A DNA stretch of 33,891 bases from Candidatus Gastranaerophilales bacterium (GTDB lineage: Bacteria; Cyanobacteriota; Vampirovibrionia; Gastranaerophilales; Gastranaerophilaceae): NCBI GenBank assembly GCA_905236505.1, contig CAJOPY010000178.1, forward strand, positions 1 to 33,891, read 5' to 3'. Made by a program: the position numbers and the translations under genes. This document shows positions 3,640-31,229 of this stretch, piece after piece. Under the pieces are notes generated by a model that was not told the origin of the DNA, searched no databases, and saw nothing but the letters and a program-made list of their open reading frames with translations. Each line of letters starts with the position of its first letter. Position 1 is the stretch's first letter.

Positions 3640-3787
3640 AAATTCCTCTCCTATTCTTAAATATTACCCCAAAACTTAATATAAATTTCCTATTGTAAAG
3701 AATTGTAAAAACGAATTTTAATCCTTATAAATCTAAGAATACTAAGCTTTTGAATTAAATTAGACAATTTTGTTTAAACTGCATTTA

Positions 3788-3821
3788 GGCAATTATTGAA
3801 GATAGAAATACTTTATATATA
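3788..3821 (+). promoter_or_regulatory. Shared promoter-like motif (GGCAATT...ACTTTATATATA)
   Basis: GGCAATT (3788-3794), 15 bases, then ACTTTATATATA (3810-3821), 16 bases before the start of the EF-hand gene. The same two blocks at nearly the same spacing occur before the genes at 12706-12957 and 17240. Compared with the copy at 13052-13085, only about five of 34 positions differ. No normal TTGACA box fits. Confidence 0.5.
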
Positions 3822-3837
3822 AAAAAGGAGAAGTTTT

Positions 3838-4102
3838 ATGAGTTACAGTACACAAATTTTATCAATTGAAGAAGTTTTTGGAAAATATGACACTAACCAT
3901 AACGGAAAAATTGACAAAGATGAAGTAAAAAAAATCAATTTATTTCCGGATTTTAAAATAAAAAAAAGGAATGACACTCAAAAAATTTGAAAAGAAAAAT
4001 TTAGACCTTTATTCCAAATACGAATACATTGCAACCGGTATGCATAAGGCAAAAGAAATGATACAGGATGATTCAAAGAATCTTTTTCCAAAATATGCGT
4101 AA
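3838..4102 (+). pseudogene. EF-hand mini-protein split by frameshift at A8 run
   Basis: From ATG 3838 (AAGGAG Shine-Dalgarno) the reading frame gives a 50-residue product ending at 3990. It contains one textbook EF-hand calcium loop, DTNHNGKIDKDE, with ligands at positions 1, 3, 5, 9 and 12 and Gly at 6. The frame breaks in a run of eight A (3960-3967). Removing one A joins it to the next frame, which continues through MTLKKFEKKNLDLYSKY to a stop at 4102, giving a coherent protein of about 88 residues. The break may be a real mutation, a sequencing or assembly error, or a site of transcriptional slippage. A calcium sensor or calcium-binding structural role is likely but the partner is unknown. 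The gene has the shared upstream motif and its own terminator. Confidence 0.7.
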
Positions 4103-4120
4103 CAATAAAATCAATATAAT

Positions 4121-4155
4121 AAAAAAAGTGTCTGCTAAATGCAGACACCTTTTTT
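4121..4155. terminator. Bidirectional intrinsic terminator
   Basis: GTGTCTGC (4128-4135), loop TAAAT, GCAGACAC (4141-4148), preceded by seven A and followed by CTTTTTT. It works as a rho-independent terminator in both directions, ending the EF-hand gene on the plus strand and the TRL-like gene on the minus strand. Confidence 0.9.
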
Positions 4156-4168
4156 ACACTTTTCTAAA

Positions 4169-12957: not shown

Positions 12958-13264
12958 AATAAACTCTCCTTATATTCTTGTAATACTCTTTTTTAAATAA
13001 GTTATGAATTCAGAAATTTTCTTTTGTTTCCTCTCTTATTTATATCTTATGTATATATAAAGTATTTAAATGTTAAAAAATTGCCTTTTTTTATTGATAA
13101 ATTTTACAAAACTTAACATAAAATAGTTTCGTTAAACTTTTTAATTAGTATTTAAAGCTTCATGACACTCATAAAAAATTTATTTAATGAGTAAAAATTA
13201 GTGCGCAAAAAAAATTTTTACGTGTTTTAATATGCATGAGAATATAAAATATGAGGTCAATAAT
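12958..13264. other. Divergent intergenic region
   Basis: No gene is visible. The region holds the leader and shared promoter motif of the minus-strand gene (13052-13116), and on the plus side the ribosome site GAGG (8 nt before ATG 13265). An imperfect hairpin with arms ACTCAT and ATGAGT lies around 13169-13195. No clear sigma-70 promoter was found for the plus-strand gene. Confidence 0.5.
13052..13116 (-). promoter_or_regulatory. Shared promoter-like motif, second copy
   Basis: On the minus strand: TTAAGTTTTGTAAAAT (13101-13116), then GGCAATT (13079-13085), 15 bases, then ACTTTATATATA (13052-13063). The 16-base upstream block is identical to 17144-17159, where the same downstream block also follows. 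Confidence 0.55.
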
Positions 13265-30855: not shown

Positions 30856-31229
30856 TATTACATCTCTGTATGTATTTTTACAAAATTTTTTCAATTTTAT
30901 ATTTTTATTTATATCTTCATTCAAAAATAATTTCAATTTCATTCAAGAATATGAAGTTATGTAACAATATATAAAAAGTTACTAAAGTTTTTTATTTTTT
31001 TGCCGATATATAAAATAAGCTTACATAATAGGTAAAATAATAAATATTATGTAAGATTTTTTATTTTTTTATTTAGGCAGATTATTACTGTTTTTTAGGA
31101 ATTATCATAATAATATCTCTTTATTATTTTGACTTTTTTTTGTCGCAATATCAATTATAATGCGCTTCTTACATAATATTTATTATTTGTATATAACATT
31201 AAGACATAAAAGAAAGGACATTGCGAATT
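30856..31229. other. AT-rich intergenic region
   Basis: No gene seen. It contains a short direct repeat (TTTCATTCAA-like, about 30917-30946), a 10-bp hairpin (CTTACATAAT 31020-31029 with 31046-31055) and the inverted-repeat element at 31035-31188 that carries the promoter for the next gene. Confidence 0.6.
31035..31188. repeat. 22-bp inverted repeats flanking a promoter (inverton-like)
   Basis: Arms at 31035-31056 and 31167-31188 are perfect 22-bp inverted complements, separated by 110 bp. Each arm includes CTTACATAAT or its complement. A TATAAT (31156-31161) inside points toward the gene at 31230, with TTGACT at 31129-31134 (21-base spacing, longer than ideal). This is the architecture of phase-variable invertible promoters. 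No recombinase is encoded in the window. Confidence 0.55.

Follow-up and report, generated by a model that had tools for sequence, protein, structure and literature searches.

In the window, the whole 33,891-nt contig of a Candidatus Gastranaerophilales bacterium analysed here, a small gene for an EF-hand protein lies between gyrA and ilvC, and its reading frame breaks in a run of eight A. We read this gene, with a probability of roughly 0.6, as a recently inactivated, frameshifted accessory gene, that is, an early pseudogene. Taking the insertion as real in the organism, we propose that, in the window's lineage, an A7 run of this A-rich gene gained one A by replication slippage, such that the ribosome would now stop after 50 residues and the helices following the EF-hand would be lost. 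Loss of function would be the most likely consequence. Since a promoter-like box, a ribosome-binding site and a terminator are retained, the gene is probably still transcribed and would give a truncated product, as in an early stage of gene decay.

An EF-hand gene interrupted in a run of eight A

The first open reading frame (ORF 1; Table 1) exceeds the Pfam gathering cut-offs for EF-hand_1, EF-hand_5 and EF-hand_6. Its loop, DTNHNGKIDKDE, carries D or N at positions 1, 3 and 5, G at position 6, a hydrophobic residue at position 8 and E at position 12, as expected of the canonical 12-residue loop, and the product is predicted to be a small calcium-binding-type protein with a single EF-hand. 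An earlier note on this DNA had described a perfect EF-hand loop, a frame break in the eight A and a coherent continuation to position 4102. All of this was borne out, the continuation also by its homology to intact relatives. With a promoter-like element 5′ and a terminator 3′ of ORF 1 and its continuation, the transcription unit is complete except for the frame break. A scan of the window against Rfam gave no match.

Runs of eight A are not special in the window. We counted 23 A8/T8 matches, fewer than the 38 expected from shuffles, and 12 other A8 runs sit within open ORFs; a second A8 run in ORF 1 itself (3927-3934) is in frame.

Table 1. Features of the interrupted EF-hand gene, in window coordinates
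Feature	Position	Strand	Basis or detail
Promoter-like element GGCAATT-N14-TACTTTATATA, 5′ of the EF-hand gene	3788..3819	+	Exact copies across family genomes; putative role, from position
Shine-Dalgarno-like GGAG, 7 nt 5′ of ATG 3838	3827..3830	+	Sequence
ORF 1, truncated EF-hand protein, 50 aa	3838..3990	+	ATG 3838, TGA 3988-3990; Pfam EF-hand above cut-off
Canonical EF-hand loop DTNHNGKIDKDE, residues 18-29 of ORF 1	3889..3924	+	Sequence and Pfam
A8 run, frame-break site	3960..3967	+	Run count; seven A, in frame, at the corresponding place in G070
Continuation GMTLKKFEKKNLDLYSKYEYIATGMHKAKEMIQDDSKNLFPKYA in the neighbouring frame, which stays open past the A8 until TAA 4100-4102	3968..4102	+	Homology to intact relatives; pN/pS
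Intrinsic terminator, usable also by the convergent TRL-like gene	4128..4148	+	Terminator prediction

The genome that contains the window is a metagenome-assembled genome (MAG) of 1.78 Mb in 200 contigs, from the same genus as MAGs of rumen Gastranaerophilales. Surveying 65 genomes of this genus, our own included, we found clear copies of the EF-hand gene in six. Three, belonging to other species, are intact, each a single fused ORF: those of genomes G013 (L037:1483-1917, 144 aa), G008 (L038, to 1875) and G024 (L039, to 1917). These have the EF-hand segment in common, followed by a short linker and the motif G-[MW]-T-L-x-x-F-E-x-x-N, and all three also contain the segment GMTL..FE..N...Y..YE of the window's continuation.

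Judging from these relatives, we take the continuation to be real coding sequence. A family profile matches the window in two frames, one before and one after the break (E=3.5e-16 and, for the post-break match at G000:C178:3926-4054, 2.9e-12), and the window aligns with an intact homologue at ~60% identity over residues 6-72, which together place the continuation beyond chance. Moreover, when the post-break frame is compared with G013, differences fall on the three codon positions as 14/7/19, highest at the third, with a ratio of nonsynonymous to synonymous differences (pN/pS) of 0.34; the comparison with G070, another carrier, gives 13/8/13 and a pN/pS of 0.53. Given the small counts, we read these ratios as past constraint and not as present function.

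The family is patchily distributed in Gastranaerophilales and consists of an EF-hand, GMTLxxFExxN and, in the modelled relative, a long helix. In this AlphaFold model of the G013 homologue, the part equivalent to the sequence after the break is predicted to form helices 51-57 and 59-113 (mean predicted local distance difference test score 72, from a two-sequence alignment). A Foldseek search with the model returned nothing significant, its best PDB matches being EF-hand proteins at E 6.6 or worse. According to the alignment, the window copy is without much of the long helix, even when the continued frame is read. Profile matches in other genera were only weak (E 0.001-0.01) and were set aside as evidence on the frame break, and none of 156 pattern matches in viral contigs was a relative. 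A literature search for EF-hands in Gastranaerophilales turned up a single paper, a proteome-wide survey. Several more distant proteins combine one EF-hand-like loop with a G-x-[TD]-L-like segment after it (L048:1480-2130, L049:1474-2253, L098, L101, L102 and L106), in the case of L049 joined to a CheD-like domain that scores below the Pfam cut-off; they may represent a wider family.

The length of the A run differs among the copies. At the break site, the window reads TTTTAAAATAAAAAAAAGGAATGAC, with eight A, while the homologous site has seven A in G070 (TTTTAAAATAAAAAAAGGAATGGC) and six in G013 (GTTAAAAAAGGC), both in frame, and no A run in G008 (ATACAAGAAGGC) or G024 (ATACAAGAAGGT). None of the other five copies has A8 at this site, nor is any broken there. 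By parsimony from the A7, the A6 and the absence of a run in relatives, the A8 would most simply be a derived one-base insertion in the window's lineage.

Two other carriers are broken elsewhere. In G070, a one-base change in a different, upstream A run (GATGAAAAAACG) splits the gene into two ORFs in two frames (L043 1606-1740 and 1361-1633, minus strand), and the copy in G030 is a multi-lesion remnant that lacks a start and whose pieces lie in several frames. Hence, three of the six carriers are broken, each in a different way, and the window's frame is disrupted relative to the open frames of G013, G008 and G024, as is expected of a pseudogene. Absence of a conserved frameshift site and occurrence in few genera are the features that separate pseudogenes from programmed frameshifts (PMC3711429), and the differing breaks within a narrow range match this pattern. 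That related copies are broken in other ways also argues for gene loss rather than a switch. The break looks young, as the downstream frame shows purifying selection across the divergence and carries no other lesion.

Inactivation weighed against other readings

Part of this evidence tells against inactivation. A single lesion with no decay after the A8 would equally be expected from a protein still made at some level or from a miscalled base. While no further lesion follows the break, the pN/pS of 0.34-0.53 spans the whole divergence, and estimates of the ratio of nonsynonymous to synonymous substitution rates (dN/dS) are weak, given six carriers and short sequences.

If the A8 were an assembly or base-call error, the run would be in frame in the organism and the protein intact, with 87 residues. 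The sole lesion does fall in a homopolymer, and the downstream frame, otherwise intact, was under purifying selection. The earlier note had named A7 in all relatives, together with A7 in the reads, as the sign of such an error; among the relatives, one, G070, does have an in-frame A7 at the site. However, since not only the 12 other A8 runs but also many A7 runs of the contig lie inside open ORFs, its homopolymer calls seem generally good, and an assembly in 200 contigs looks more like one from short reads, where A8 errors should be rare. We consider an error unlikely, and less likely than an early pseudogene.

That recoding yields some full-length protein, as the earlier note had proposed for polymerase slippage, is more doubtful. 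Either RNA polymerase would slip at the A8 (to A7 or A10) or the ribosome would shift by +1 at AAA AAA AGG. The A8 and the following AGG would permit this by sequence, the P-site tRNA can re-pair, AGG is the less used codon in the window's ORFs (4.4 per 1000 codons vs 20.5 for AGA), and the downstream frame is conserved. Yet rescue by slippage requires −1 or +2, whereas slippage at homopolymers mostly inserts: in Buchnera, homopolymer tracts were the site of 151/157 transcription insertions but of just 16/57 deletions (PMC5574713). In addition, A8 falls one A short of the length at which many genomes show evident selection (PMC1088944). The earlier note had also imagined a phase-variable switch between 50- and about 88-residue forms. 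In such a switch, the A tract would change length at a high rate and turn the full-length protein on and off. We find this very improbable: the tract does lie within a coding region, and the family member in G070 likewise carries an indel in an A run, but the two indels affect different runs, the tract at this site is not kept in other copies, and A8 runs often occur within open genes of the window. As no relative has the A8 and other copies are broken elsewhere, the comparison of copies leaves both slippage and phase switching unsupported.

Slimmer still is the chance that rumen Gastranaerophilales use the A runs of this family as switches, turning it on and off or choosing between long and short forms in a reversible way. 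It is conceivable because two of the three broken copies (window and G070) have a single A-run indel in otherwise coherent frames; if true, tract-length switching would represent homopolymer phase variation in a group without genetics so far. We give least credence to two overlapping ORFs, the second begun by translational coupling at an ATG (3972) that shortly precedes the first stop (3988), as the Shine-Dalgarno-like AGGA is only one base from this ATG and, in intact relatives, both parts are fused into one ORF. An early pseudogene, our preferred reading, would be of little importance beyond annotation. It nonetheless puts on record a small EF-hand family of uncultured gut Gastranaerophilales that is easily lost, as well as a gyrA-ilvC spacer with turnover of unrelated small genes.

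Genomic neighbourhood and promoter-like elements

In the genus, gyrA-(TRL-like)-ilvC is a recurrent block in which the TRL-like gene is only sometimes present. Several of the inspected relatives have a spacer of 5-116 bp before ilvC, others have unrelated small ORFs in it, and, of the genomes inspected, only our own has the EF-hand gene there. The copies in G013 and G070 instead adjoin PfkB-like and PD-(D/E)XK-like genes, and those in G008 and G024 a glycosyltransferase-like gene (neighbours named by eye). These differing neighbourhoods, combined with spacers that lack the gene in the inspected relatives, identify it as an accessory gene. The ilvC-side spacer itself presents as a spot of small-gene turnover (window 3640-4168; L055, L057, L058, L060, L070, L072, L073, L078 and L080).

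The element upstream of the EF-hand gene, GGCAATT-N14-TACTTTATATA, has exact copies in 172/191 family genomes and 38/41 genera, whereas its reversed pattern has zero copies among the genomes listed. Sixteen copies are found in our own genome; the window holds two, the one listed in Table 1 and another at 13054-13085 (-). Many copies lie directly 5′ of small ORFs, and from this position the element looks like a lineage-wide putative promoter class for some sigma factor.

A sigma28/FliA-like box, TAAAGTTT-N(9-13)-GCCGATA, was seen at window 30983-31008 (+), with 25 copies in our own genome and matches in 49/60 family genomes vs 0-1 for the reversed pattern. This box or a near version of it precedes the EF-hand ORFs of G008 (L038) and G024 (L039), and also several orphan ORFs of the gyrA-ilvC spacer (L057, L060, L070, L072 and L073).

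Comparison with known systems

With the Pfam EF-hand domain (PF00036, PF13405, PF13202), the window ORF shares the canonical 12-residue loop and a flanking helix. It differs in having one full EF-hand only, the next segment, GMTLxxF, being without a loop; in the G008 and G024 homologues, the loop is degenerate and neither has a Pfam hit. Genes with functional transcriptional slippage, such as the A9 of Thermus dnaX and those of insertion sequence (IS) elements (PMC1088944), resemble the window gene in the A run within a coding region and in that two products are conceivable. Here, however, the run has eight A instead of nine, is not conserved, and would need a shift in the unfavourable direction. 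From the homopolymer-indel pseudogenes of AT-rich bacteria (the class in PMC3711429) the window gene shows no notable difference: it shares with them an A-run indel of one base, in a gene that is otherwise intact, and a frameshift site that is not conserved among homologues, all within one genus.
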